NCBI GenBank assembly: GCA_022509065.1
Contig: JAFLTY010000015.1
Location: 1-48,855, forward strand
Direction: 5' to 3'
DNA from: Muribaculaceae bacterium
GTDB lineage: Bacteria; Bacteroidota; Bacteroidia; Bacteroidales; Muribaculaceae
DNA: 48,855 bases
Shown here: piece by piece, positions 11,720-28,259 of the stretch
Layout: every line of letters begins with the position of its first letter
Numbering within the stretch: the stretch's first letter is position 1
The notes under the pieces: generated by a model
Database searches by the model: none
What the model was told of the DNA's origin: nothing
The model's input: the letters and a program-made list of their open reading frames with translations, nothing else
Position numbers and translations under genes: made by a program

Positions 11720-12868
11720 ATGAAGAACATTTTAAGGATAGCTATCCTGGTGATAGGAGGCTTTGTCGTGATGCAAGCGAATGGCGCAACGGTCGAGACT
11801 GAGATTGACGGTATTTGGTATCGTTTAGGAAATGTAGGGAATACGAGCCCTAATTACGCAAGTGTGATATCACCTCCCGAAAACAAATACAGTCAGCCCA
11901 GCTATCATATTCCGTCGTATGTTACTTATAATGGTGAACAATATCCTGTGGACATGATAGAATATCGTGCTTTTTATAATTGTACCGATGTAAAAGAAGT
12001 CATTATGGATGGTGTGCCACAAGGAATGCTTGACTACATCAGCCCCTACGCTTTTGAAGGTGCCGGGATTGAACGTGTCGTTTTTCCGGAGGCTGAGGTT
12101 CAAGTGCATGTAGAATCGTTTTACGGATGCGAAAACCTTGACCGCATCGTGTTTAATTCACAAGAAACATATCTTGAGGTGGGTTTTGAGGGTTTTCCAG
12201 TATCGGTGGAAAAGATCATCTTTAAAGGGAACTCTATTATCGAGCCCCCGGCAACGGCCTATAGTCATCGCGATGAGGACACGGAAGGCTCGGATAACGT
12301 GGCTGTACCGTTATGGTTTGACGAGTCACTCCCTGTAAATGCCAACATGACAGTTGAGTGGGGTGACGGGGAACACCTTGTGATGTCATTGGATTGGTTC
12401 ACCGGCGAAGTGCTTACATTGAGCGGCAGGTGTAAATGCTGGCAGAGGTGTGCCACATACGGCAATGTGCGTCATCTCTATCTGGAAGAAGTTGCTGACA
12501 GGGATGAAGCATACTTATGCGCCAGGATGTTCAATAACTGCGACAATTTCGAGACTATCACATGTTATGACGCAACACCATGGCCCGTTGACGAGGATTT
12601 TCTCGGTGACGACTCGAAGTTTGATACGGTGCATGTTTATGTGCCCAACGGCGCGGTCGCTACCTACCGTCAGGATCCGGTATGGGGCAGATTCGCACAT
12701 ATATCGGCTATAACGGACAGCGTTGAGTCTGAAACCCTGATAGACAAGGCTGAGGATAACGCCGTTCCTGAGTATTACAACTTACAGGGTGTAAGGGTTG
12801 AGCAACCGCAGCCTGGCAGCGTGGTTATTTGCCGACAAGGCAACCGTGTGACAAAGAAAGTCTGGTGA
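11720..12868 (+). CDS. Secreted LRR-like (BspA-type) protein
   Basis: A 382-residue exported protein. The ATG at 11720 gives a good signal peptide (MKNILRIAILVIGGFVVMQANG); earlier in-frame starts at 11684/11687 would only add a polar extension. LRR_5-like repeats occupy about 60-160 (YRAFYNCTDVKEVIM, YAFEGAGIERVVFPE, ESFYGCENLDRIVFN). The block VYVPNGAVATYRQDPVWGRF near 320 matches a block of the upstream paralogue. The C-terminal tail from EYYNLQGVRV is nearly identical to the upstream gene's at DNA level. The gene is less AT-rich than the protease island before it. It is followed by a strong terminator at 12976. Confidence 0.8.
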   Translation: MKNILRIAILVIGGFVVMQANGATVETEIDGIWYRLGNVGNTSPNYASVISPPENKYSQPSYHIPSYVTYNGEQYPVDMIEYRAFYNCTDVKEVIMDGVPQGMLDYISPYAFEGAGIERVVFPEAEVQVHVESFYGCENLDRIVFNSQETYLEVGFEGFPVSVEKIIFKGNSIIEPPATAYSHRDEDTEGSDNVAVPLWFDESLPVNANMTVEWGDGEHLVMSLDWFTGEVLTLSGRCKCWQRCATYGNVRHLYLEEVADRDEAYLCARMFNNCDNFETITCYDATPWPVDEDFLGDDSKFDTVHVYVPNGAVATYRQDPVWGRFAHISAITDSVESETLIDKAEDNAVPEYYNLQGVRVEQPQPGSVVICRQGNRVTKKVW

Positions 12869-15100: not shown

Positions 15101-16309
15101 TCAGGGCTTGTCAGCACGCGAAGATGAACCACTGTTGTCGTCACAGTACCATGCGTAGAGACGTTTTATGCCTTCGTCGAGTTCCACACTGTGACGCCAT
15201 CCCAACTCATGTAGTTTTGTGACATCGCACAGTTTTCGCATCGTGCCATCGGGTTTAGTGTTATCCCAAAGGATATCGCCGGTGAACCCCACAGCATCTT
15301 TGACGATTTGCGTTGTCTGTGCAATGGTGTGTTCTATTCCGGTACCTATATTGATATGGGTGTTACGAACAAGTGGTAACTGACTCTTGGCGAGATCCTC
15401 GAAACGTACGTTGAGCAGTATATGAACCGCCGCATCGGCCATATCCTCGCTCCACAGGAATTCGCGTAAGGGTTTTCCTGAGCCCCACAGCTGCAACACG
15501 TCGGGATATATACCGAAACGAGCAAGGAGGTTTGCTATGTCCTTGTCGGTCATGCGTGGGTCGTAGCCACTCACCGGTCGACGGTCAAAATCGACCCGTA
15601 TAGACTCGAAATCGCCTTTACTCAACAGTTTGGCGAGATGAGTCTTGCGTACCATTGCCGGGAGCACGTGGCCATTCTCCAAATGAAAATTATCGTTGGG
15701 ACCATAGAGGTTGGTTGGCATAACGCTGAGGTAGTCGGTACCGTACTGCAGGTTGAGGCTTTCGCACATTTTCATACCGGCTATTTTAGCTATGGCGTAC
15801 GGCTCGTTGGTGTATTCGAGTGGAGCGGTAAGGAGAGCGTCCTCGCGGATTGGCTGGTGGGCCTCACGCGGATAGATGCATGTCGAACCAAGGAACAACA
15901 GGTGTTTGACACCGTGACGCCATGCCTCGGTGATGACATTTTGCTGAATGGCAAGATTCTGGACAATGAAGTCGGCTCTGTAGGTGTTATTGGCCATGAT
16001 GCCGCCAACTTTAGCCGCAGCCAGAATCACGACTTCGGGTTGTTCAGCATCAAAGAAGTGGCGGACTGCCACGCTGTCTGTCAGGTCGAGTTGCTGATGG
16101 GTTCTTCCGACAAGGTTTGAGAATCCTCGATGTTCGAGATTACGCCAAATGGCGGAACCTACCAGACCACGATGTCCGGCAACATATATTTTGGTGTCGG
16201 AGTTGAATCCTTTGACATTGTCGAGGGTTTCAGTTTGCGAGGCACCCTTCGCGCGGGATGTGGCGGGTGTCTCCGGGTTGTTGTGGCGTGCAGCTGTCAT
16301 CATTACCAT
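15101..16309 (-). CDS. fcl: GDP-L-fucose synthase
   Basis: The enzyme epimerises and reduces the 4-keto-6-deoxymannose intermediate made by Gmd to GDP-L-fucose. It is a short-chain dehydrogenase-type epimerase: nucleotide-binding AGHRGLVGSAIW near 43-54, and the catalytic Tyr-x3-Lys in YAIAKIAGMKMCE. Starting at the ATG at 16309 gives 402 residues, with about 40 polar residues before the Rossmann fold, where typical family members have 3-6. A TTG at 16315 and ATGs at 16303 and 16300 are alternatives, and no later in-frame ATG removes the extension. It follows gmd directly. Confidence 0.93.
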   Translation of the reverse strand: MVMMTAARHNNPETPATSRAKGASQTETLDNVKGFNSDTKIYVAGHRGLVGSAIWRNLEHRGFSNLVGRTHQQLDLTDSVAVRHFFDAEQPEVVILAAAKVGGIMANNTYRADFIVQNLAIQQNVITEAWRHGVKHLLFLGSTCIYPREAHQPIREDALLTAPLEYTNEPYAIAKIAGMKMCESLNLQYGTDYLSVMPTNLYGPNDNFHLENGHVLPAMVRKTHLAKLLSKGDFESIRVDFDRRPVSGYDPRMTDKDIANLLARFGIYPDVLQLWGSGKPLREFLWSEDMADAAVHILLNVRFEDLAKSQLPLVRNTHINIGTGIEHTIAQTTQIVKDAVGFTGDILWDNTKPDGTMRKLCDVTKLHELGWRHSVELDEGIKRLYAWYCDDNSGSSSRADKP

Positions 16310-16311
16310 TA

Positions 16312-17385
16312 TCAATTGTTGCCATTGTCTTTGCCTTCGGCCACGAGCCGCATATCGGATTCGACCATACGGCGTACCAGAGTGTCGAACGATGTCTTTC
16401 GGGGATTCCAGCCCAAGGAGGCCTTGGCTTTGGCGGGATTGCCGAGCAGCTGATCGACTTCGGCGGGACGGAAAAAGCGGGGGTCGACTTCCACAACGAC
16501 TTTTCCTGTGGCTTTGTCTATGCCTTTTTCGTCTACTCCACTGCCCTGCCAGTCGAGTTCGATGCCGGCGACGGAGAACGCTTTAGTGGCGAACTCGCGT
16601 ACGGAGTGACACTCGCCCGTAGCGATAACGAAGTCGTCGGGCTCGGGCTGTTGTAAGATAAGCCACATGCACTCGACGTAATCGGGTGCATAGCCCCAGT
16701 CGCGCAAGGCGTCGAGGTTGCCAAGATAGAGTTTATCCTGACGCCCCGCGGCGATACGCGCTGCGGCAAGAGTGATTTTTCGGGTCACAAAGGTTTCGCC
16801 GCGCCGTTCGCTTTCGTGATTGAACAGTATGCCGTTAGCGGCGAACATGCCGTAGCTTTCGCGATAGTTCTTGACTATCCAGTAGGCGTAAAGTTTGGCC
16901 ACGCCATAAGGTGAGCGAGGATGGAAAGGTGTCGATTCGGTCTGAGGTATTTCGGCAACTTTGCCATAAAGTTCGCTGGTTGAGGCCTGGTATATACGAG
17001 TGGTTTTTTCGCGACCCAGTATTCTGACGGCCTCAAGCAAACGCAGTGTGCCCATAGCGTCGACATCGGCGGTGTATTCGGGGACATCGAACGAAACCTT
17101 GACATGACTTTGAGCAGCCAGGTTATATATCTCGTCGGGTTTGACTTGTCCGATGATGCGAACGAGCGAGGATGAGTCGGTCATATCGCCCCAGTGAAGT
17201 TGGATACGTCGGGCGGTGTGCATGTCACGTACCCAATCGTCGAGGTAAAGATGTTCGATGCGTCCGGTGTTGAACGATGAGCTACGACGCATTATGCCGT
17301 GGACTTGATAGCCTTTGGACAAAAGGAACTCGGCGAGATAAGAGCCGTCCTGTCCTGTGATGCCGGTTATTAACGCTGTTGCCAT
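16312..17385 (-). CDS. gmd: GDP-mannose 4,6-dehydratase
   Basis: Gmd converts GDP-mannose to GDP-4-keto-6-deoxymannose, the first step to GDP-fucose. The ATG at 17385 gives a 357-residue protein starting [21 protein letters not shown], with the NADP loop GITGQDG at 8-14 and the catalytic [12 protein letters not shown] block (Tyr-x3-Lys). An upstream in-frame start at 17442 would overlap the promoter and add unrelated residues, so it was rejected. The stop codon is 2 bases from the fcl ATG, so the two are clearly coupled. Confidence 0.97.
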
Positions 17386-17409
17386 GAGGTTGTGATGTGA
17401 GTTATGAGG

Positions 17410-17417
17410 CAAAGATA
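17410..17417 (-). promoter_or_regulatory. -7 element for gmd-fcl
   Basis: On the minus strand this reads TATCTTTG, fitting TAnnTTTG, 24 bases before the gmd ATG. The -33 match (CTTG at 17440-17443, 22-base spacing) is weak and overlaps the terminator hairpin of rplU-rpmA. Confidence 0.55.
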
Positions 17418-17434
17418 GGCAAAAGAATTGAAAT

Positions 17435-17463
17435 GAGCGCAAGGGTAATTATCCCTCACGCTC
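17435..17463 (-). terminator. Hairpin ending the rplU-rpmA transcript
   Basis: GAGCG (17435-17439) pairs with 17459-17463 and AGGG (17442-17445) with 17453-17456, with two mismatches between and a 7-nt loop. On the minus strand a T-rich stretch follows. It ends about 32 bases after rpmA. Confidence 0.55.
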
Positions 17464-17784: not shown

Positions 17785-18105
17785 TTATGCAACTACTTCT
17801 TTAATCACTACTTTTGTAAAGAACTGGCGGTGACCGTTTTTACGACGATAGCCTTTGCGGCGTTTCTTCTTGAAAACGATGACCTTGTCACCCTTGACGA
17901 GGGGAAGAGCCACTTCACAAACGACTTTGGCACCTTCGAGAGTGGGAGTGCCAACCTTAACATCTCCATCATTGTCGGCGAGGAGCACCTGGTCGAACTC
18001 AACCACGTCACCTTCTTTGACATTGTCGCCGAGGAAATGAACATACAGGAACTTACCGGCTTCGGCCTTGAACTGCTGTCCCTGGATAGATACGATAGCG
18101 TACAT
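17785..18105 (-). CDS. rplU: 50S ribosomal protein L21
   Basis: A 106-residue L21 protein: [19 protein letters not shown] at the N-terminus and the C-terminal [18 protein letters not shown] signature that contacts 23S rRNA. It is the first gene of rplU-rpmA. About 90 bases of leader with a hairpin separate it from a TAAATTTG promoter box, which leaves room for translational feedback by L21 or another control. Confidence 0.99.
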
Positions 18106-18324: not shown

Positions 18325-18912
18325 TTAGAACATGAAGGCGTCGACTTTGCGCTGGGTTTTCAGGCGGTCTTGTTCGCGCGGATCAATACCGGGGCTGGTG
18401 TAGTATCCTTTTTCGGAGGAGCTTCCGTCTACCCAGTCTTTCATGGTGCCCACGTTGTTTGTCTGTTCGTGGAATAGTGTCTCGTAATCACGGGTAAAGT
18501 CGGCAGGAGGCACCACGTTGGTGTCGAAAGACAGGACACGGACGTTAGAGTCGGTGAAATTGCCGTAGCACCACACGAAATGTTCGACGTATCCGGTGTT
18601 TTTGATAGAGTTGTATTGCAGGCGCACGGCATTGCGTTTGCCGGGCAAGACGACGATGGGAAGTTCGTCGAGAGGGACGAGACAACCGCATGTTGTCTGG
18701 ACTTCCTGAATGAATAGAGGCGCCTCGGAGTTGTTTTCGATCTCGAAATCTATCTTGAGCTGTTCACCCTGGATGACGGGATAGTAATGACGGTCGGGGT
18801 CGACAAATTCGGCGTTGGCGAGTTCGAGTTCTTTCTGGCAAGCAGAAAAGACCATTACGGCCAACGCGGCAAACAAAAGATACGCTGATATGCGGAGTCT
18901 GTCTTTACACAT
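18325..18912 (-). CDS. DUF1573-like lipoprotein
   Basis: A 195-residue lipoprotein: signal peptide with lipobox VFSAC, Cys25. The mature N-terminal half has an immunoglobulin-like pattern typical of DUF1573, with FEIENNSEAPLFIQEVQTTCGC (TTCGC at 73-77), the family's strongest signature. The C-terminal third is charged and shows no known motif. It is the last of five closely spaced minus-strand genes (31 bases after the DUF4838 gene), so it probably serves the same envelope polysaccharide machinery. DUF1573 proteins have no settled function. Confidence 0.78.
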   Translation of the reverse strand: MCKDRLRISAYLLFAALAVMVFSACQKELELANAEFVDPDRHYYPVIQGEQLKIDFEIENNSEAPLFIQEVQTTCGCLVPLDELPIVVLPGKRNAVRLQYNSIKNTGYVEHFVWCYGNFTDSNVRVLSFDTNVVPPADFTRDYETLFHEQTNNVGTMKDWVDGSSSEKGYYTSPGIDPREQDRLKTQRKVDAFMF

Positions 18913-18943
18913 AACCTATTGGTGATGACATGCCGGAGGAGGG

Positions 18944-20668
18944 TCAATAAGCTTCGATCTCTTCGATGGCCATTGTCTTGAAGTCCTGATTGCGGTATAG
19001 TTTGAGTGTCATGGGACCGTGTACGAATGAGGGAATCTCAAACTCGACAAATGAGTGACCTCCGTGTTCTTTGAGACGATGGGGTTCGACGGTACCAAGC
19101 GACTGACCCTGATAAACGAGTTCTACAAGTTCGGGTAATCCGATGTGGTAGCCGTGATTCTGCACGAGAGCCACGCGAAGGTTACGGGCACCTTCGACTT
19201 TGGGAATTTCGACTGCAAAGACTGTATTAGCGGATGTTATAAGGTTACCGTTATGATAGTTTGATGGCATACCGAGCAGACCGTCGGTAATGATTGAGAT
19301 ATCGGGGTAGTCGGGATCGAGAGGCGTGAGTGCTCTTAGCATGTGACCTTTAAGGAGGTTGCGACCTTCCATAGCCTTAGCGTGACCTGCCATGAAAGAA
19401 TAGTCTTTGACATAGTCTGAGACGGCCCACATCGATTCGTTGTAGACATCATGACCCATGTCGACCATATCCATAAGACTTTCGAGTTGGTCATCGTAGC
19501 CATTGAGGTTACCGTTGAGACGTTCTATCTCGAGTGCTGTAAGACTCAGCGCATTGATAAGTTCGTCCAGTTTGGCACGTTCGGCACCATGGGTATTGTC
19601 GCGGTCGACTATGAGAGCGTTATAGAAGTCCATGAATCTGTCGGCAGGCAGGTATATTTCTTTAGCTTTCGCTACACCGTCGTACATTGGTAGAGGCTGC
19701 GACTGGCGAGTGAAGTAATCATCCTGATCAATCATGAAGTCGGTTATTGTCTCGGCAGCAGTCGGGAAGAGAATGGCGACCTGTTCGCGAAGGTTTGTTT
19801 TCCAGTCATAATCAGGGTCATAAAGTATCTGCGAGAGCACTTGCGCGTTCACGTTGCCCAAAGCAGTGTAGTCTGAGCCGCTACCGTTGAGGAAGACGCC
19901 TTTGACACCGGCTTTTTCATACTCCTGTAGTCTGTGCTGCATGACGCTGAACAACGGCACCGGGGTGAAATAATCGTCGAAGTTGTTGATATAGTCCCAG
20001 ATGTAAACGCGGTTGACATATTTCTGCCAATCGGCAATGCGGTTAAGGAAAACAGACTCCTCCGTGGTGGGGTTTACGGTGCGCGGATAGTTCATAGCAC
20101 TCATTATGACGCCGGCGTTTGATGGCAGCGGTGAGTCGGGCAATGAACTGGTAGTGAGGTAGTCGGCAACGAAAAATATGTGATTGGGGAAACGTTCGCA
20201 CAGGCGGCGCACCAGGTTGAAGACAGCCGGGGAGGCGTCGTTCTTGGTGTTTCCGCGCGCAACGCATTTGGTATCGAGACACACGACATCGTTATCGTTG
20301 GGCATGATGGTGAAACGCACCGTGTCCGAGTGTCCGTAGTTATCGTCAATATAATCGACTATGTAATTATAGAGGTGTTCAGACGAAAAACAGTACTGGC
20401 TGTAGTCGGATGTGCGGCCGTTAGGTTTGGCATAGATGTTATGGGAATGTTCTTCGGGTATCATGGTTGCAATGTTGTGTCCCCAAACACCCCAGTCGTA
20501 ATCCACCGAGTTCAACCCATAGGCTGAGGCTTTCTTACCCAAAGTCTGGGGCATGTATATCTCGTTATACTCGAAGGCCGCGTCGGTACGAGTGGCCTTG
20601 ACATTGGAACAACTCATGAAGCAAAACGCTCCAACAAAAACACCTAATGCTAATAAATCTGATTTCAA
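18944..20668 (-). CDS. DUF4838 lipoprotein, glycoside-hydrolase-like
   Basis: A 574-residue lipoprotein (lipobox FMSC, Cys20). The mature protein fits DUF4838, a TIM-barrel-like family found beside glycoside hydrolases and named from sequence only: WGVWGHNIATMIPEEHSHNIYA near 60, NYPRTVNPTTEE near 210, RVYIWDYINNFDDYFTPVP near 240, then GVFLNGSGSDYTALGNVNAQVLSQILYDPDYD. The C-terminal 120 residues look like a beta-sandwich. It is 27 bases after the beta-barrel exporter gene. A role in trimming or modifying the exported glycan, by analogy with the periplasmic PgaB or BcsZ, is plausible but inferred. No catalytic residues can be named with confidence. Confidence 0.78.
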   Translation of the reverse strand: MKSDLLALGVFVGAFCFMSCSNVKATRTDAAFEYNEIYMPQTLGKKASAYGLNSVDYDWGVWGHNIATMIPEEHSHNIYAKPNGRTSDYSQYCFSSEHLYNYIVDYIDDNYGHSDTVRFTIMPNDNDVVCLDTKCVARGNTKNDASPAVFNLVRRLCERFPNHIFFVADYLTTSSLPDSPLPSNAGVIMSAMNYPRTVNPTTEESVFLNRIADWQKYVNRVYIWDYINNFDDYFTPVPLFSVMQHRLQEYEKAGVKGVFLNGSGSDYTALGNVNAQVLSQILYDPDYDWKTNLREQVAILFPTAAETITDFMIDQDDYFTRQSQPLPMYDGVAKAKEIYLPADRFMDFYNALIVDRDNTHGAERAKLDELINALSLTALEIERLNGNLNGYDDQLESLMDMVDMGHDVYNESMWAVSDYVKDYSFMAGHAKAMEGRNLLKGHMLRALTPLDPDYPDISIITDGLLGMPSNYHNGNLITSANTVFAVEIPKVEGARNLRVALVQNHGYHIGLPELVELVYQGQSLGTVEPHRLKEHGGHSFVEFEIPSFVHGPMTLKLYRNQDFKTMAIEEIEAY

Positions 20669-20695
20669 AACGGCTAATTTTAGATATAAATGTGA

Positions 20696-23521
20696 TTAAA
20701 AGGACAAATGGAACTGCACATTGATGCTGTAGACGTTGCGGTAGGCGTCGAACGACTGTGCGAGCGCCTCGCTGTGAAGCGGGTTGTAGTATGTGTTCCA
20801 CGCACCGAGCAGTCCCATGTAGAAATGGCTGGAGAATAGATACTGGACATCGAAACCTACCATGGCGTTGACTTTGGAGAAATTGCCCAAGCCGGTATTG
20901 TCGAAGAAGGTCAGTTCGGGGAATGAACCGAAGCCGGCCAACAGCGATATCGACGATATGTTGTCTTCGTTAAAGAATAGTTTGCCTTTCCAACCGACGT
21001 TATAATGGAAAGAGAGGTTGGCACGCCCGACCTCTTTGAGCGCAATGAGGCTGACATCGAGCGAAGTGTTGATGCGTTCCCACGATTTAGCGCAGGATGG
21101 TGTCAACATAGCCACGTGATAGCGGCCTGTGCGCTGAGTTGTCGAGCTGTAAATGAAGTCGGTTGGTGTCAGACGGTATCCCAGTTTGAGTGATGGCGTC
21201 CAATCGCGGTCGGCTGAATAAGAAGCAGAGATGTTAGCCCCGAGGGTGTTGAAATACTTCAGCCCGTATGACGCCGAAGCGGACATGCTCCAACGATGGT
21301 TGAAAGTGTGATCCCACTGAGCCATGAATTCCAGACCAATGCCTCCAGTCTCGACATACTGACCTTCGATATATCCGTCGACACCTTTGTACGAGATCTG
21401 ACCGGTGTAGTTATTGCTTGCCGTCTGACGGCTATACGACACAGAGGCAATTGAGAAGAGGTGACCGCGCGAAGTAAGCTCGGAATTTCGGCTATCGAAG
21501 AAAGCCGACGTATAATTGGCTTCGACACGGTTGCTGAAACTGCGGTACTGCAGATATCTCATGTGTTGATACCACTCGGCCTGTTCGGCATTGCTCGGAT
21601 TGTAATATTTTTTCTGAAGGTCGTATGCGCGGCCATAGTCTTTTAGCAGTTCGTATGCGAGACCTTTGAGATAGTGGAGCTCTTTGTTTGTGGGGTCATA
21701 CATCAAAGCAGCGTCAATCTTGTCAATGGCCTGCCGCGGCATTTTTTCCTTAATAAGCATACCTGCCCACTCCTCGGTAATACCGGAGAAAGCGGCGTAT
21801 ATGTGGGGATTGAGGTAATCGTCGCCTTTTCTGGGTTTGAGAATAGCGAGGGCTTCTTCGGGTTTACCCTGCTGCATCAAGGCAGATGCCTGTTTAACAA
21901 TAAAGTAAGGCTGGTCGGGATATGTCTCGTAGCCCTTAGCGGCGTACTCATAAAACATTTCGTTGTTTTTGAGAGTCTGAGACATATTTATGACGGTGCG
22001 GAGACCGGCTTCGCTGTAAGGCATAACCTTAAGGAGGTCGAGCGCCTCGTTGAGGGCGTCGTTATACTGTTCGTTTTCGATGAGTATTTTAAGACGCGCG
22101 GCAGCCACCTCGTCGTATGCTGCGGCAAAACGCTCGGTTTTGGAGGGATCGGCAATGACACCGACCTCGTAAGCCCAACGTGCATCGGCAAACCTGTTAA
22201 GACGTCCAAGGAGTGTGATTTTCTTGGCGACGGTGCTTGCCCATGCCTCATTAGTTGGCCACATGCGCTCAAGGGCGCGGTTGATATTGTCGAGAGCCGA
22301 CTCATAGTCGCCGTTCTCTATTTCGCGGTTGGCCAAATCGATAAGCATTGCGGCAAACTCGTCGTCGAGGCCGTCGATGGTGAAATTAGCCTGGTTTATC
22401 TGCTGGAGAACGCGCATGACGCCTTTTTCGTCGCCGAAACGTTTCTCGAGAGTGTATTCCTTGTACAGGAGGTCGGGTGTGCGACCAAACCTGTTGTAAG
22501 CCTCGTTAAGGTAGACGATGGCGTCGTCGTAGTAACCTCGCGTTATGGATGTGTTGAGTAGATAACGCAAAGCAATAGTATCGCCAGTTGCAAGATACAG
22601 ACGTCCGTTAGCCTCGTAAGGGTCTCGCATACGGGCATCGTCGGCGACTTCGCGCAAAAGGTTGTTATATATAGGAGTGCCCATTCGGTGTTCGCGGGCA
22701 AAATTGAGGGCGCGTGTCAATTGACCCATTTCGGTGAGCATGGACACGACGAGGCGCGTCAGGTCGCCATTGGAGGGGAACCAGCGCAGGCCACGGTTTG
22801 CGGCACCGATGGCACGGTCGTAGTCGCCAACCTGACGGTAGACGTTTACGAGCTCGGTATAATACTCTATGTTGCGGTTGTCAAGGTCGATCCACGACTC
22901 GAGTAGTCCTGACCGCTCGTCGAGGGGGGTGCTTGACAGACGGCTTATCCAGTTCTCTTTGTTACGCGCGTTGAGGTCGCGCTGCACAATGGAGTCGTTG
23001 GGGTAGATGCGTGCCAGACGTGTAAGAGCCTGGTCGGCCTCGGTACGGTGACCTATCTTGTTGTAAAGCGCTATTTTACGGCGCCACATATCGCGGTCGT
23101 AAGGCTGGAACTCGAGGAGTTCGTTGATGTAACATATTGCGCTGGAGTAGCGCTTAGCCTCGTCCTCGATGTCCACCATGAGACGTTTGGCCTTGAAGTT
23201 CTGGTCGTCGCTCTGGATTGATTTGACAAGATTGTACCGAGCCTGTTCGAGGTCGCCGACGGCATAGTAGTAATAACGACCGTTGAGGTAACGGAGATCG
23301 GGGTTGTCGGGGAATTTAGCCAAGCCGGCGTCTATCTCGCGTTTGGCGGCCTCCCACGACCCGGCGTTCTCGTAATTCTCGGCTCGCGACGAGTAATAAC
23401 GAGAGGTAAGTCCTTCGCCGGAACCGTCTTGCGCCCATGTTGTCAGGAGTGACAACGCGGCCAAGAGTATGACGGCAGAGAACCGTAAGGAGAAAGATAT
23501 GTTGTTTCTAAATAATGTCAT
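20696..23521 (-). CDS. TPR-rich outer-membrane protein with C-terminal beta-barrel (PgaA/YaiO-like)
   Basis: A 941-residue exported protein: signal peptide cleaved near Ala30 (SLLTTWA-QDG), about a dozen TPR motifs from 35 to about 660 (for example ENYENAGSWEAAKREIDAGLAKFPDNP), then a beta-barrel-like part (about 680-941) of alternating strands ending VYSINVQFHLSF. The C-terminal Phe is typical of outer-membrane proteins, and the barrel resembles YaiO. TPR scaffold plus barrel in one chain is the plan of PgaA and of BcsC, which pass polysaccharide across the outer membrane. It is 12 bases after the GT2 synthase gene, so export of that enzyme's product is the likely role. Confidence 0.85.
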   Translation of the reverse strand: MTLFRNNISFSLRFSAVILLAALSLLTTWAQDGSGEGLTSRYYSSRAENYENAGSWEAAKREIDAGLAKFPDNPDLRYLNGRYYYYAVGDLEQARYNLVKSIQSDDQNFKAKRLMVDIEDEAKRYSSAICYINELLEFQPYDRDMWRRKIALYNKIGHRTEADQALTRLARIYPNDSIVQRDLNARNKENWISRLSSTPLDERSGLLESWIDLDNRNIEYYTELVNVYRQVGDYDRAIGAANRGLRWFPSNGDLTRLVVSMLTEMGQLTRALNFAREHRMGTPIYNNLLREVADDARMRDPYEANGRLYLATGDTIALRYLLNTSITRGYYDDAIVYLNEAYNRFGRTPDLLYKEYTLEKRFGDEKGVMRVLQQINQANFTIDGLDDEFAAMLIDLANREIENGDYESALDNINRALERMWPTNEAWASTVAKKITLLGRLNRFADARWAYEVGVIADPSKTERFAAAYDEVAAARLKILIENEQYNDALNEALDLLKVMPYSEAGLRTVINMSQTLKNNEMFYEYAAKGYETYPDQPYFIVKQASALMQQGKPEEALAILKPRKGDDYLNPHIYAAFSGITEEWAGMLIKEKMPRQAIDKIDAALMYDPTNKELHYLKGLAYELLKDYGRAYDLQKKYYNPSNAEQAEWYQHMRYLQYRSFSNRVEANYTSAFFDSRNSELTSRGHLFSIASVSYSRQTASNNYTGQISYKGVDGYIEGQYVETGGIGLEFMAQWDHTFNHRWSMSASASYGLKYFNTLGANISASYSADRDWTPSLKLGYRLTPTDFIYSSTTQRTGRYHVAMLTPSCAKSWERINTSLDVSLIALKEVGRANLSFHYNVGWKGKLFFNEDNISSISLLAGFGSFPELTFFDNTGLGNFSKVNAMVGFDVQYLFSSHFYMGLLGAWNTYYNPLHSEALAQSFDAYRNVYSINVQFHLSF

Positions 23522-23533
23522 ATTGTTGCAAAA

Positions 23534-25009
23534 TCAGCGTGCCGGGGCTTGCTGCTGCTCTTTACTGTCGGTTTGTTGGTCAGAGTTTGTCGAGGTATTG
23601 AAGCCGCGACGTTGAATCTGCTTCCACTCGGCTTTGCGATGGGTGAGGAAGTTGACATAACCGAACAATGTGCAGAAGGTTATTATAGGATGATAAAGAA
23701 ACGGCTCGGTGGCACCGGCAATCAGCAGTTTGAGATAGCTCCATACCGAATGTTTCCATTTGACGGCACGGGAGGTGTAGTCAAGGATGATTGTGACGGC
23801 TGTCACTACCAAGGCAAATACATAAACCATGCCAAAAATAACGAAAGCCGTAGTCCAGTTGACTTTGCTTGCCAGCACAAGCCATATCATGAAGCCCAAA
23901 CCGATTGCCTCGAGGATGGGCGCAATGAATTCGAAGATAAAGATGTATGGCAGAGTCAACCTGCCGAAACGGCCATACGTGGGATTGAAGAAGAGGTTCC
24001 AGTGGTGGGAAATGATCTCGCACATGCCACGCCCCCAGCGTTTTCGCTGTCTGAAAATGGTACGGAACGAGAACGGACCTTCTGTCCAGCAGCAAACCTG
24101 AGGTACTTGCGCTATACGGAACTTACGGCCGGAGTTGGTCATGTAGGTCACCATTCGCAGGAGCATATCGACATCCTCGGCCATAGAGCGAGGGTCGTAA
24201 CCACCCGATTTCACAACTATGTCAGTATCGAAGAGGCCGAATCCCCCGGAAATGTTGGGCAGGGTGTTAATTGATGACCATCCCATTTTTCCGAGCAGGA
24301 AAGAACGCATGTACTCGAGTTGCTGGAACCAAGGGAAAGGGTTCCATGCCACGGCGGGTTCGGTGACGCGGCCGTTCTCTACCTTACAGCCGTTACCCAT
24401 GAGCATTGTCGCGCCGACACCAATCATTGGTTCGTGGCTGTTTACGACGTGCCACATCATGCGATATATGGCCATTGGCTCAACGATGCAATCCACGTCG
24501 GTGTTGATGAAATAGGGCGACTCGGTGACGTTAATCCCGGCATTTATACCATCGCTTTTGAATCCGCCGTGCTCCTTGTCGACGACAAAAAGACGATTGT
24601 CCACTGTTGAGCGGAAGACTCGCTTGATAGGCTGCGACGGTACACGCAAGGTATTGGTATAAGGAGTCTCGACAAGCTTGAACTCTTCGATGAGCTTGTC
24701 GAGCGTCTTGTCGGTGCTGGCATCGTTGACCACTATGACGTCGAACTTGGGATAGTCGACACCAAGCAGTGAGTGAACGTTGTCGATAACGGTCTTCTCC
24801 TCGTTGTAAGCCGACGCTATGATGGATACCTTGGGGGTAAGAGGGGATCCGCGCAGGAAGTAACGGACGGTGTTGTCGTCGGGCACGTTGATTTCGCTTC
24901 GATGAATGGCTCTGATACTCATAACGGCGAGAGTCAGAAGCGTCACCATCGAAGTGATGCTATAGAAGAAGATAGCGTACGAGAATATGTAATAAATTAT
25001 GATCCACAT
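23534..25009 (-). CDS. Processive GT2 polysaccharide synthase, membrane-bound
   Basis: A 491-residue inner-membrane glycosyltransferase with the PgaC/cellulose-synthase layout: one or two N-terminal helices (1-32), a cytoplasmic GT2 domain (about 58-340) and helices at about 352-455. The processive-synthase motifs are all present: VVNDAS with Asp96, DxD at Asp171/Asp173, the AEDVD base motif near Asp279-281 and QRKRW (321-325). It should add one sugar repeatedly from a nucleotide donor while moving the chain through the membrane. The sugar cannot be told; GlcNAc (as PgaC) or glucose are guesses. No PilZ domain is visible. Its tail (from about 470) is Gln/Ser-rich. Confidence 0.9.
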   Translation of the reverse strand: MWIIIYYIFSYAIFFYSITSMVTLLTLAVMSIRAIHRSEINVPDDNTVRYFLRGSPLTPKVSIIASAYNEEKTVIDNVHSLLGVDYPKFDVIVVNDASTDKTLDKLIEEFKLVETPYTNTLRVPSQPIKRVFRSTVDNRLFVVDKEHGGFKSDGINAGINVTESPYFINTDVDCIVEPMAIYRMMWHVVNSHEPMIGVGATMLMGNGCKVENGRVTEPAVAWNPFPWFQQLEYMRSFLLGKMGWSSINTLPNISGGFGLFDTDIVVKSGGYDPRSMAEDVDMLLRMVTYMTNSGRKFRIAQVPQVCCWTEGPFSFRTIFRQRKRWGRGMCEIISHHWNLFFNPTYGRFGRLTLPYIFIFEFIAPILEAIGLGFMIWLVLASKVNWTTAFVIFGMVYVFALVVTAVTIILDYTSRAVKWKHSVWSYLKLLIAGATEPFLYHPIITFCTLFGYVNFLTHRKAEWKQIQRRGFNTSTNSDQQTDSKEQQQAPAR

Positions 25010-25022
25010 ACTTTAGTAACGC

Positions 25023-26315
25023 TTAACTTACGCTATAGAAATTATCACCGTACATCTGTTCGTAGAAGTCGTTTTTGGGAAGCTTGACATCCTCGAGCGA
25101 CATCGGGTTGACAAAAAACTCGAAAAGTTTTTTGTCGCCTTCCTCGACTGCTTTGAGACGAAGTTCCTCGAATTTAGCGCGTCCCACAGCGCCGTAATTA
25201 TACAGAGAGCGAAGAGCTTCGTAACGCACGCGCTGTGAACCGCTATGGAGATAGATATCGACAATGGCGTCGAGGCTCTCGCCGGTGTTGAATCGAGCCA
25301 GGGCATGCATGATTGTCACTTTGATTTCGTCGCTCTGTGTCAGCATCATTTCACGCATGTTTTGTTCGGCCTCTTTATAGCCCAGATAACCCCACGTGCG
25401 CGAAATCTCCTGAATGACAGAAGGGTCGGCCTGGTGCAGAAACAGTTCCTCGAGGTCGCTGCAGTACTCGCGTTGGTTGAAGAAACGCATCATGCGGATA
25501 AATATGCACTGTGCATCGGGATTTGGGTGAAGGTGTGCCCAGTGAGCCATGTTGGGAATGGCGCGTTTGCTCGATAGACGACGTTGCAGTATGTAGCCAA
25601 GCTGTATCTCGTCGTACTTGCAACAGTTATGGTCGAAAAACTCGGACTCGAAATACTCAAGGTCGTTATTGCTGTTGGTCATAATGGAGGCGTAGCTTGC
25701 CACACGTTTCGCGCGGTTTCGCTTGGAACCCATCATACGGTTTGCCAACCAGAGACTTACCGTAAGCTTGAAGGCGTTGAGCATGGTCATGGCTTCGACC
25801 TTTTTGTCCATCTTGTCGTTGTTGACAACGGTTTCGAGATACTGAGGCAACTCGAAGAGGTTAAGGAGGATTTGAATGTTTTTCGATTTTCCGACGGCAG
25901 CACGTTCGCTGATGCGCTCCTGATAGACAAGACGACAGAAAGCAAGTTTCTCTTTCGATTTTTTCAGCAGGCTGGCGTAGCTTGTGGAATCGGATTCGTG
26001 GAGGTTCAATGCTTGGATGATTTGGTCACGCGACATATTGCTCGGTGCTTCTTCCGACATGATGTAACGTATGCCGTCGCCGTATTTTTTCTCCAAGTCC
26101 TGCATTATTCGCCTCACTTTGTGGCGTTTACGTGACTTGCGCATCATTCTAAACAAGAGATAGAAGATGATGAACACACATATTGTCACCGATATAGCCG
26201 CCACTTTAATAACAAACGAGAACTCCCGATACTGATCGTACATATAGGTCACCAGGAACCAGAAGTAGGTCACTATCAGGTAAAAATAATATGATATGAT
26301 ATTAATTGTTCCCAT
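25023..26315 (-). CDS. Membrane-anchored HEAT-repeat protein of the exopolysaccharide-like cluster
   Basis: A 430-residue protein with a hydrophobic N-terminus (7-25) and a strong membrane helix at 35-56, then a basic stretch (RMMRKSRKRHKVRR) suggesting the rest is cytoplasmic. Helical repeats of HEAT type follow, best seen at about 280-390 (for example EIKVTIMHALARFNTGESLDAIVDIYLHSGSQRVRYEALRSLYNYG). It is the first gene of the cluster, 13 bases before the synthase. HEAT repeats are protein-binding scaffolds, so it may assemble or regulate the synthase, in the place that PgaD or c-di-GMP proteins take elsewhere. That role is inference. Confidence 0.8.
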   Translation of the reverse strand: MGTINIISYYFYLIVTYFWFLVTYMYDQYREFSFVIKVAAISVTICVFIIFYLLFRMMRKSRKRHKVRRIMQDLEKKYGDGIRYIMSEEAPSNMSRDQIIQALNLHESDSTSYASLLKKSKEKLAFCRLVYQERISERAAVGKSKNIQILLNLFELPQYLETVVNNDKMDKKVEAMTMLNAFKLTVSLWLANRMMGSKRNRAKRVASYASIMTNSNNDLEYFESEFFDHNCCKYDEIQLGYILQRRLSSKRAIPNMAHWAHLHPNPDAQCIFIRMMRFFNQREYCSDLEELFLHQADPSVIQEISRTWGYLGYKEAEQNMREMMLTQSDEIKVTIMHALARFNTGESLDAIVDIYLHSGSQRVRYEALRSLYNYGAVGRAKFEELRLKAVEEGDKKLFEFFVNPMSLEDVKLPKNDFYEQMYGDNFYSVS

Positions 26316-26564: not shown

Positions 26565-28259
26565 TTATTCTGCTAACTCAGAATGATAGCCCTCTACCCC
26601 TTTCTTATTGTATACATGATTATAAGGAGCGTTGTTGAGGTGCCATGCTTCGTAATAATCTTCGTACTCTTTCATCTGTTCGTCAATGATGGCGACTGTG
26701 CAGTCGTGCGGATTGACACCTTGGCCTTTATTGCCTTCACCATCATATTCGTAATGGAAAGCGTTGATGTAGTAATTGGGTGCGTCGTCAATGAACCGAA
26801 CGGTAGACTTACTGAGGTGGTTGATCAAAGTTTCAATGTCTATTGCATCATGATTATGTTCAACACCATATTGATCTATTCCGCTATCGCCGAAGTAGTT
26901 CCATACTTCGAATGTGATACCATCACCATTCTTTTCGAAGAGATAATCGATAACTTCCTGGGTGATACCGTCAGTTGTAACACGGATACCTTCTTCCTCT
27001 AACTTAACAGTAAGAGTTACAGTATAATAGTCAGCGACAGGATATGTAACAGTATATTCAGTTTGACTACCTCCATAAGCACCATTACCATTCATATGTG
27101 TTTCGAAGATATACATATCGTCTTCGGGACAATATAGGTTAGCGGGTATCGGGATAAATACCTCAACGTCTGTAGCGTGACGAACGTGGATAGAGAGATG
27201 CGATTCGTAGTATTCAGGATTTAGAGGATCTTCACCTTTTTCTACGCCGTGCAGGTTGATTTCAACCTCGTTGTCGTGCTTAACTTCGACGGGAGTATCA
27301 GGGGTTTCAGGATCTTCGGGATCTACACTGGGGATTTCGGGTGTTTCGGGATCGGGATCAGGAGTGGTGGGATCTTCTGTCCATACATCAGGAGGAGTTA
27401 CGCCTTTAGGATAAGCGGGAGTGATTTTAATAATCCAGTCATTGTAATCCCAATCATTATGTTCTGCACCTTTACCGGGATTACCATCGACATCGTTTTC
27501 AGCATGACCACAACCGAAATCGAAACAGATATACCAATTACCGTCAACTTGAACGGTGATATATTCATACCAATGGAGATTTTCATGACAATTGATATAC
27601 CAACGGAACTGTTTACCAACCATTTCCTCATAAGTACCAAGTGTCATATCTGTCATCAAGGTGGTTTCATTGATACGTGTTTGAGAACCATCAGCATTTA
27701 CTTTTTGGAAATACTGATTCATATGAGCAGAATTGGTTACTTGTTCATAATTCTCATAATCCTGGGTATGAGTATCAGTATACCACTGGCTCTGAACTCT
27801 GCAATCAGCACCTTTATTCCATGCTTCAAATGCATAAGATGATGAAGAAGTGCCGTTACTACCTGCACCTTGGAAACTTCCATTTTGACCGGATATCACA
27901 TCCTGTAGGAAATAGTTTTCCCACGGGAATACAGTTTCTTCACTAATTCTGCTTCCGCCGGTCTTTTGGGCGATAGCAGCAAGAACAGCTCGTCTTTCAT
28001 CATCAGTGACATTTTCCAATTTATCAGTATCAAACTGCCTCCATGTTTGATTATTCAGATCACCATCACCAGCGTTTGCACGTGAGAAGACGCCACCGTT
28101 ACCGAGCATTTGGTTACCGGAGTAAGCGATTACTTTCGGAGCTTTAAGGATGAGGTCGCCGTTAGCGCCATTCAGAACAGGCTCTTCCGACGAACAAGCT
28201 GCGAGACCTGAAACCATCAGACCAGCTGTCATCGCATAGAAAAGTTTCTGTAATTTCAT
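26565..28259 (-). CDS. Large acidic surface lipoprotein of unknown function
   Basis: A 564-residue lipoprotein with lipobox GLAAC (Cys22) followed by SSEEP, which resembles the Bacteroidetes signal for surface exposure. The first domain (about 30-285) ends in HNDWDYNDWIIKI, a motif of acidic beta-domains such as DUF4114/DUF4842. Then come a Pro/Thr/Asp-rich linker (289-326) and a second domain (about 330-564) rich in acidic and aromatic residues. It has its own transcript between the exopolysaccharide-like operon and the divergent rhamnosidase gene. I do not recognise a precise family; a binding or structural surface role is inferred from the layout. Confidence 0.72.
   Translation of the reverse strand: MKLQKLFYAMTAGLMVSGLAACSSEEPVLNGANGDLILKAPKVIAYSGNQMLGNGGVFSRANAGDGDLNNQTWRQFDTDKLENVTDDERRAVLAAIAQKTGGSRISEETVFPWENYFLQDVISGQNGSFQGAGSNGTSSSSYAFEAWNKGADCRVQSQWYTDTHTQDYENYEQVTNSAHMNQYFQKVNADGSQTRINETTLMTDMTLGTYEEMVGKQFRWYINCHENLHWYEYITVQVDGNWYICFDFGCGHAENDVDGNPGKGAEHNDWDYNDWIIKITPAYPKGVTPPDVWTEDPTTPDPDPETPEIPSVDPEDPETPDTPVEVKHDNEVEINLHGVEKGEDPLNPEYYESHLSIHVRHATDVEVFIPIPANLYCPEDDMYIFETHMNGNGAYGGSQTEYTVTYPVADYYTVTLTVKLEEEGIRVTTDGITQEVIDYLFEKNGDGITFEVWNYFGDSGIDQYGVEHNHDAIDIETLINHLSKSTVRFIDDAPNYYINAFHYEYDGEGNKGQGVNPHDCTVAIIDEQMKEYEDYYEAWHLNNAPYNHVYNKKGVEGYHSELAE

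Follow-up and report, generated by a model that had tools for sequence, protein, structure and literature searches.

The stretch analysed here, called the window, comprises the 48,855 nucleotides of contig JAFLTY010000015.1 (positions 1 to 48,855, forward strand) from a Muribaculaceae bacterium (GenBank assembly GCA_022509065.1) and is the start of contig 7 in a 2.28 Mb draft genome. On its minus strand, positions 18325-26315 hold five genes that an initial annotation had read as an exopolysaccharide synthesis and export system. In transcription order they encode a HEAT-repeat protein, a glycosyltransferase of family GT2, a protein with tetratricopeptide repeats (TPR) and a beta-barrel, a DUF4838 protein and a DUF1573 protein, separated by 13, 12, 27 and 31 bases. 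The strand and the gaps of 12-31 bases claimed earlier agreed with the open reading frame (ORF) coordinates, and Pfam matches agreed with the domain calls for all five proteins. The genes are the following.

25023..26315, minus strand: HEAT-repeat membrane protein, 430 amino acids (Pfam HEAT_2, 5.9e-8; hydropathy; iterated profile; adjacency to GT2)
23534..25009, minus strand: processive-type GT2 synthase of the inner membrane, 491 amino acids (Glycos_transf_2, 4.8e-15; motifs; tree)
20696..23521, minus strand: TPR solenoid and C-terminal beta-barrel protein with a signal-peptide-like start, 941 amino acids (TPR models; AlphaFold2; hhalign)
18944..20668, minus strand: DUF4838 lipoprotein with a TTG start, 574 amino acids (DUF4838, 2.3e-28)
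18325..18912, minus strand: DUF1573 lipoprotein, 195 amino acids (PF07610, 1.3e-12; alignment)

Products of the five genes

The GT2 protein has hydrophobic segments according to hydropathy. Its D, DxD, ED and QxxRW motifs had been described as complete, and in an alignment of 24 sequences all of them were invariant (N95-D96, D171, D173, E278-D279, Q321-R322, R324-W325). It is a membrane GT2 with processive motifs, as in the synthase-dependent secretion class. The HEAT protein shows two hydrophobic segments, spanning roughly residues 4-22 and 35-53, followed by a basic stretch and the HEAT part, which is probably cytosolic. We propose that the protein is a partner subunit of the synthase.

The 941-residue protein was matched by many TPR models (best Pfam value 1.9e-16). 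AlphaFold2 (mean predicted local distance difference test score 83, predicted template modelling score (pTM) 0.52) placed 35 helices within residues 40-661 and 14 strands of at least nine residues within 664-940. The barrel part was compared with YaiO-type barrels (hhalign 96.3%, E 1.7e-9), and a reversed control gave 0.1%. Structure prediction thus upheld the C-terminal barrel, and the profile comparison placed it among the kin of YaiO barrels. By prediction, the protein joins a TPR part to an outer-membrane barrel, as is typical of the class; the accessible part of PMC9601211 gives 16-18 strands for barrels of this class, compared with the 14 long strands here. On the strength of the model, we propose that the protein may act as periplasmic conduit and outer-membrane exporter.

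For the DUF4838 protein, the predicted fold consisted of a glycoside-hydrolase (GH)-like barrel, a helical part and a C-terminal beta-sandwich. Its fold relatives are catabolic hydrolases. The fold is O-GlcNAcase-like, and the glucuronidases of GH115 and GH67 also fit. We propose, based on the model, that it may be a periplasmic glycan enzyme. The DUF1573 protein carries an invariant CGC motif in the alignment (C75-G76-C77) and is proposed as an accessory lipoprotein. Both proteins have a cysteine at a lipobox-like position and are putative lipoproteins. Sequence searches of the PDB with the HEAT, DUF4838 and DUF1573 proteins gave no useful match.

Conservation of the cluster and of the HEAT-GT2 pair

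Conservation of the set was analyzed by a pattern scan with the GT2 protein across 84,980 species genomes, which gave 38 loci. All five families were found in the same order and on the same strand in each of the 33 loci uncut by a contig end; in the other five (L042, L047, L056, L065, L070) a contig edge lies inside the operon. The GT2 frame was short in two of the 33 (L071 and L074). Judged by length, L079 and L040 are one contig, as are L032 and L039. The records are labelled Muribaculaceae, Bacteroidaceae, Prevotellaceae bacterium, uncultured Bacteroidales and the like; nearly all are metagenome bins, many with rumen or gut names. Among 198 genomes sampled from the family of the window, 13 had an operon-type DUF4838 match of at least 528 bits. 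Eleven of these were fetched, and ten contained all five families, L082 being the one without DUF1573; the set is also complete in the remaining two, which are the window and G030. In L089 the TPR gene is spread over three frames.

As the searches up to this point had each started from one operon gene, profiles were run on 295 genomes of the order as a less dependent test. The DUF4838 profile gave five matches of 826-461 bits with the next at 178, and the DUF1573 profile five matches of 303-115 bits with the next at 54. The top five genomes were identical for both (G000, G055, G280, G439, G512), and the matches lie on the same contig, a few kb from the GT2 match. G000 and G055 had contributed rows to the two profiles; G280, G439 and G512 had not. 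In G512 (L091), the genes form two groups that face each other. Both lipoproteins also stay beside the synthase in another family, with 32% identity for DUF4838 and 40% for DUF1573 (L033). A complete copy in Bacteroides finegoldii (L116, NZ_OY725906.1) is annotated as HEAT, glycosyltransferase, hypothetical, DUF4838 and DUF1573. This 112 kb record is labelled plasmid, and dapB, lepB and other housekeeping genes adjoin the operon; therefore, the record may be a piece of chromosome.

The HEAT-GT2 pair was found to be far more widespread than the five-gene set. GT2 profile matches at E of 1e-60 or lower occurred in 36 of the 295 order genomes and in 70 of 296 genomes of the phylum. A HEAT profile that drew on 23 diverse members was then applied to these 296 genomes. 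Among the matches listed, HEAT lay upstream on the same strand within 2.5 kb at 73 of 78 GT2 places and within 400 bases at 68; 11 of the 78 places had given a row to the HEAT profile, and without them the count was 62 of 67. Conversely, 66 of the 68 strongest HEAT matches were such GT2 neighbours. The count took all 78 GT2 places and 84 HEAT places, namely the strongest in order plus some weaker ones adjacent to GT2, the other weaker ones being left out. HEAT matches at E of 1e-6 or lower occurred in 152 of the 296 genomes, and the weak ones are therefore mostly general HEAT proteins. HEAT upstream of GT2 was present in 65 of the 296 genomes, or about one fifth.

Plasmid records gave 22 GT2 matches, 17 of which were fetched (H4, H5, H18, H21 and H22 were left out). 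All 12 fetched matches with at least 29.9% identity had HEAT upstream. They belong to Bacteroides, Emticicia, Mesorhizobium, Legionella, Erythrobacter, Devosia, Deinococcus, Planococcus, Paenibacillus and three haloarchaea. Thus the pair is present in Pseudomonadota, Deinococcota, Bacillota and haloarchaea besides Bacteroidota. None of the five fetched matches below 26% identity had HEAT; they comprise one annotated deacetylase fusion, two fused proteins of more than 1,100 amino acids, one GT2 near GH genes and one after a DUF2334 gene. An iterated HEAT profile, refined on the same ORFs that were later counted, matched 48 of 1601 ORFs in 62 loci, one per locus and each adjoining GT2 (in L124 by annotation). 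No HEAT-profile match was found in the other 14 loci, which are L034 (where the contig starts in GT2), L035, L037, L038, L109, L128-L132 and four E. coli stretches. In the stretches examined, PgaC, YaiP and the deacetylase-fused synthases had no HEAT neighbour. Both the order genomes and the plasmids contain HEAT-less GT2 domains at the end of proteins of more than 1,100 amino acids (L037 6675-10055, L038 667-4089, L128 2673-6080, L131 2745-6116).

In a tree of 48 GT2 rows, one 100/100 branch separated nine rows (PgaC, YaiP, BcsA, fused and other synthases) from 39. The larger side held all 36 HEAT-bearing rows, the HEAT-less L035 and L109, and NfrB. The window GT2 lies on the HEAT-bearing side, with its HEAT gene directly upstream. 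The five-gene type formed a 100/100 group of eleven rows, one of them L082 with its four genes. Just outside it stand L098, in which DUF1573 was not found, and L101, in which neither DUF4838 nor DUF1573 was found. This placement would fit a step-wise gain of DUF4838 and then DUF1573 onto a HEAT-GT2-YaiO core.

The neighbours of the pair were analyzed in 20 regions (L090-L109), hand-picked and non-random, from the top GT2 places and from spread families; the count of 78 places is free of that choice. The searches recovered a protein of the TPR-barrel or YaiO type in 14 of these 20 regions (weak in L107, on the opposite strand in L100). In Emticicia, Mesorhizobium, Legionella, Erythrobacter and Devosia, the annotation likewise shows YaiO or TPR genes next to the pair. 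As the pair persists without an outer membrane, HEAT belongs to the synthase rather than to export, and the outer parts can be swapped from branch to branch. A GH-like protein adjoins the pair in several loci of Bacteroidota and Bacillota, and in Deinococcus it lies within a longer annotated TPR protein. The main part of the one in L036 has no Pfam name (Pfam scan of L036 only). The coordinates are as follows.

L036, 3299-5935: GH-like protein at the pair
L090, 3209-5884: GH-like protein at the pair
L120, 626-3727: GH-like protein at the pair
L124, 1241-3667: GH-like protein at the pair
L125, 1685-3754: GH-like protein at the pair

Besides L036 and L090, the adjoining GH-like proteins are those of Paenibacillus, Planococcus and Deinococcus. 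Apart from these, the GH-like protein of L109 (3632-6892) also carries a polysaccharide deacetylase domain, and the GT2 next to it is without HEAT. Nucleotide-sugar genes accompany the pair in two further loci: in Halosolutus it is followed by a sugar-phosphate nucleotidyltransferase gene and glmS, and in Legionella adelaidensis genes for nucleotide-sugar enzymes surround it. These neighbours fit sugar-polymer synthesis. Beside HEAT-GT2-YaiO we also observed a sulfatase-family protein (L103, 10023-12455) and an annotated lipoteichoic acid (LTA) synthase family protein (L117, 9149-11116), which could add a phospho group to the polymer.

Proposed role and alternatives

We compared the cluster with known systems. 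Pga shares a GT2 synthase, a TPR and outer-membrane barrel and a periplasmic glycan enzyme, and PgaC_IcaA is the best curated model for the GT2 protein. However, the match of 89.4 bits is far under the cut-off of 422.3, the cluster has a HEAT protein, the draft genome yielded no GGDEF, and Pfam found no polysaccharide deacetylase family of the PgaB type in the five proteins (PgaD was not searched for). Membership in Pga was therefore rejected. Bcs shares the layout of synthase, TPR-barrel and hydrolase. It was likewise rejected, with 13.9 bits against a cut-off of 699.1 for the CelA model and no PilZ, BcsB or GH8 match in the five proteins by Pfam. NfrA-NfrB (NGR glycan, phage N4 receptor) also combines a processive-type GT2 with a TPR outer-membrane protein, and its polymer is not fully known according to the accessible part of PMC8669469. 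Membership in Nfr, in which GT2 is fused to MshEN, was rejected as well: here, the 491-residue GT2 has no MshEN domain by Pfam, and the HEAT protein is separate. E. coli YaiO-YaiP has a YaiO-type barrel gene near a GT2 gene, but no HEAT gene within the 10 kb examined. YaiP was also rejected as closest relative, since the GT2 profile gave 1.2e-8 for YaiP and 8.8e-14 for PgaC.

An earlier trace of the pair is found in Clostridium perfringens NELoc-2, where a table from 2010 lists a HEAT-repeat gene just before a GT2 "chitin synthase", after CotH and a 685-residue hypothetical protein (PMC2879425). The accessible part of that paper does not treat the pair as a system, and the locus has no outer-membrane parts. 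Planococcus L125 resembles NELoc-2 in gene layout. In open PubMed Central, neither the HEAT-GT2 partnership nor the DUF4838 and DUF1573 additions were found described as a system, no paper contained both HEAT repeat and YaiO, and a single one contained the term DUF4838; subscription papers lay outside the search, and a prior description is possible. Within that literature, the earlier statement that no named system has this set held. The general logic of synthase-dependent secretion is already known. New, within the open papers searched, are the HEAT partner, its breadth and the DUF4838 and DUF1573 additions.

Taken together, the cluster quite probably encodes a synthase-dependent exopolysaccharide machine. 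The idea of a single machine is supported by the co-occurrence of the families and by the predicted barrel. GT2 would polymerise a sugar nucleotide and extrude the chain across the inner membrane. The HEAT protein, anchored by its N-terminal membrane segments, would place a cytosolic solenoid beside the catalytic domain and hold or regulate the synthase without cyclic di-GMP (c-di-GMP). The TPR solenoid would then guide the chain through the periplasm to the C-terminal YaiO-like barrel, which would pass it through the outer membrane. The DUF4838 lipoprotein might trim or process the chain, with the DUF1573 lipoprotein as accessory. PgaD and PilZ hold or regulate synthases in other systems. The initial annotation had HEAT in place of PgaD or BcsB/PilZ. 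We keep the partner role, but not the notion of a local stand-in, since one synthase clade is almost always accompanied by HEAT, in different phyla and in archaea too. The search for GGDEF gave nothing in the host draft genome, while 8 of 14 control genomes contained it; c-di-GMP control is therefore unlikely, and HEAT is a natural candidate for holding or regulating the synthase. DUF4838 had been read as replacing PgaB or BcsZ. Its reading as a glycan enzyme stands in refined form, as its slot seems to be filled by a different GH-like protein in some other branches. Three observations hint at a substrate of the N-acetylglucosamine type, namely the score against the PgaC model, the resemblance of the DUF4838 fold to O-GlcNAcase and the genes next to the pair in Halosolutus. 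We do not commit to a sugar, because GH115 and GH67 match the DUF4838 fold equally well.

Several points weigh against the exopolysaccharide machine. Polymer production, the HEAT-GT2 contact, the export path, the DUF4838 activity and the location of the lipoproteins are what we infer, and the catalytic residues of DUF4838 are guesses. The pTM of the TPR-barrel model is 0.52. Its best 50 Foldseek rows were helical-repeat proteins by title, and therefore no barrel neighbour is named (PgaA and BcsC were absent among these 50, which proves nothing). TIGR04390, the YaiO model, gave no direct match for the window protein or for the five-gene relative L092; it matched in L036, L098 and L101. In single-profile searches, no TPR-barrel or YaiO-type protein was found in L095, L104, L105, L106, L108 and L109. 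DUF1573 was not found in L082 after position 12313 (best E 1.4 with filters off), with the other four genes present, and this gene is therefore perhaps not strictly required. As to the pair, HEAT was not found upstream at five of the 78 GT2 places (G594, G743, G648, G696, G714), the first three having a weak HEAT match whose position was not among the matches listed, nor upstream of GT2 in L035 and L109. The training overlap of the HEAT profile and the refinement of the iterated one count here as well, as does NfrB, which groups with the HEAT-bearing rows through a branch of length 8.18, probably an artefact.

Other explanations were weighed against the same data. GT2 might glycosylate a surface protein or lipid, with HEAT presenting the acceptor and the TPR-barrel protein handling glycosylated lipoproteins. 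HEAT and TPR solenoids are protein-binding scaffolds in general, and two lipoproteins are encoded in the operon. However, the QxxRW, ED and DxD motifs are invariant as in processive synthases, the archaeal and Bacillota pairs come without DUF4838 or DUF1573 in the annotation and ORFs examined, and Pga, Bcs and Nfr likewise combine GT2 with a TPR-barrel, so that we regard this explanation as very improbable. Slightly less remote, but still improbable, is that DUF4838 and DUF1573 form a co-transcribed catabolic or mucin-processing pair outside the export machine. The catabolic fold relatives would agree with this, and other DUF4838 proteins are common, often of 730-800 amino acids, the weaker type standing alone in 55 of 60 DUF4838-matching order genomes. 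In contrast, strong operon-type matches among the 295 order genomes occurred only where a synthase is adjacent, and both genes stay with the synthase in the divergent L033.

HEAT could also be a mere regulatory receiver that ties the synthase to two-component signalling and is dispensable for synthesis. Short response regulators of about 125 amino acids are encoded immediately ahead of HEAT or close to it in three haloarchaeal loci, and close to it in the Alphaproteobacteria Mesorhizobium, Erythrobacter and Devosia (in all L121, L122, L127, L118, L123 and L126), where they are a possible direct signalling input. In some of these loci, Hpt or histidine kinase genes are nearby. Yet the operons of the window and of B. 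finegoldii have no response regulator, and HEAT was kept in all 33 uncut loci. We therefore consider a dispensable receiver unlikely, albeit the most serious of the alternatives.

The known cases of synthase-dependent secretion amount to a handful of systems, and several of these are linked to c-di-GMP. Beyond the cluster itself, the data raise the possibility, which we hold to be evenly poised, that HEAT-GT2 is an ancient class of its own among the processive polysaccharide synthases, shared by bacteria and archaea. HEAT would be its obligatory second subunit and a c-di-GMP-independent signalling interface, with two-component receivers close by in archaea and Alphaproteobacteria but none in the Bacteroidia operon. 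The outer modules would be specific to the envelope: cells with an outer membrane would add a YaiO barrel, whether or not it has a long TPR part, several phyla a GH-like protein, and Bacteroidia both DUF4838 and DUF1573. If true, many surface polymers would be made by an uncharacterised machine, since the clade occurs in the 65 phylum genomes, in gut Bacteroides, in a plant symbiont and in haloarchaea. This bears on the control of GT2 synthases where no GGDEF enzyme is found, and on the glycans that gut Bacteroidales make outside capsule loci.

Flanking genes

Expression signals were scanned in the window. A Bacteroidetes-type promoter pattern gave three matches (chance mean 2.63), none of them ahead of the HEAT gene; the sigma-70 scan gave 11 (chance mean 15.5) and the terminator scan 13 (11.4). 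Downstream of the cluster, ORFs at 15101-17442 are by eye what we take to be gmd- and fcl-like GDP-sugar genes, and they were excluded from the system. The intervening ORF at 17785-18105 is presumably L21-like, also by eye; used as query on 45 loci, it gave none among the matches listed. Upstream lies one further gene.

26565..28259, minus strand: lipoprotein, 564 amino acids, ending 249 bases ahead of the HEAT gene (profile matches at the operons of relatives)

A DUF4842 gene annotated beside the B. finegoldii operon did not match the profile of this lipoprotein. In a profile search, 15 of 71 loci had a homologue next to the operon, with one contig represented twice among these 15, and the protein is possibly an optional operon partner.

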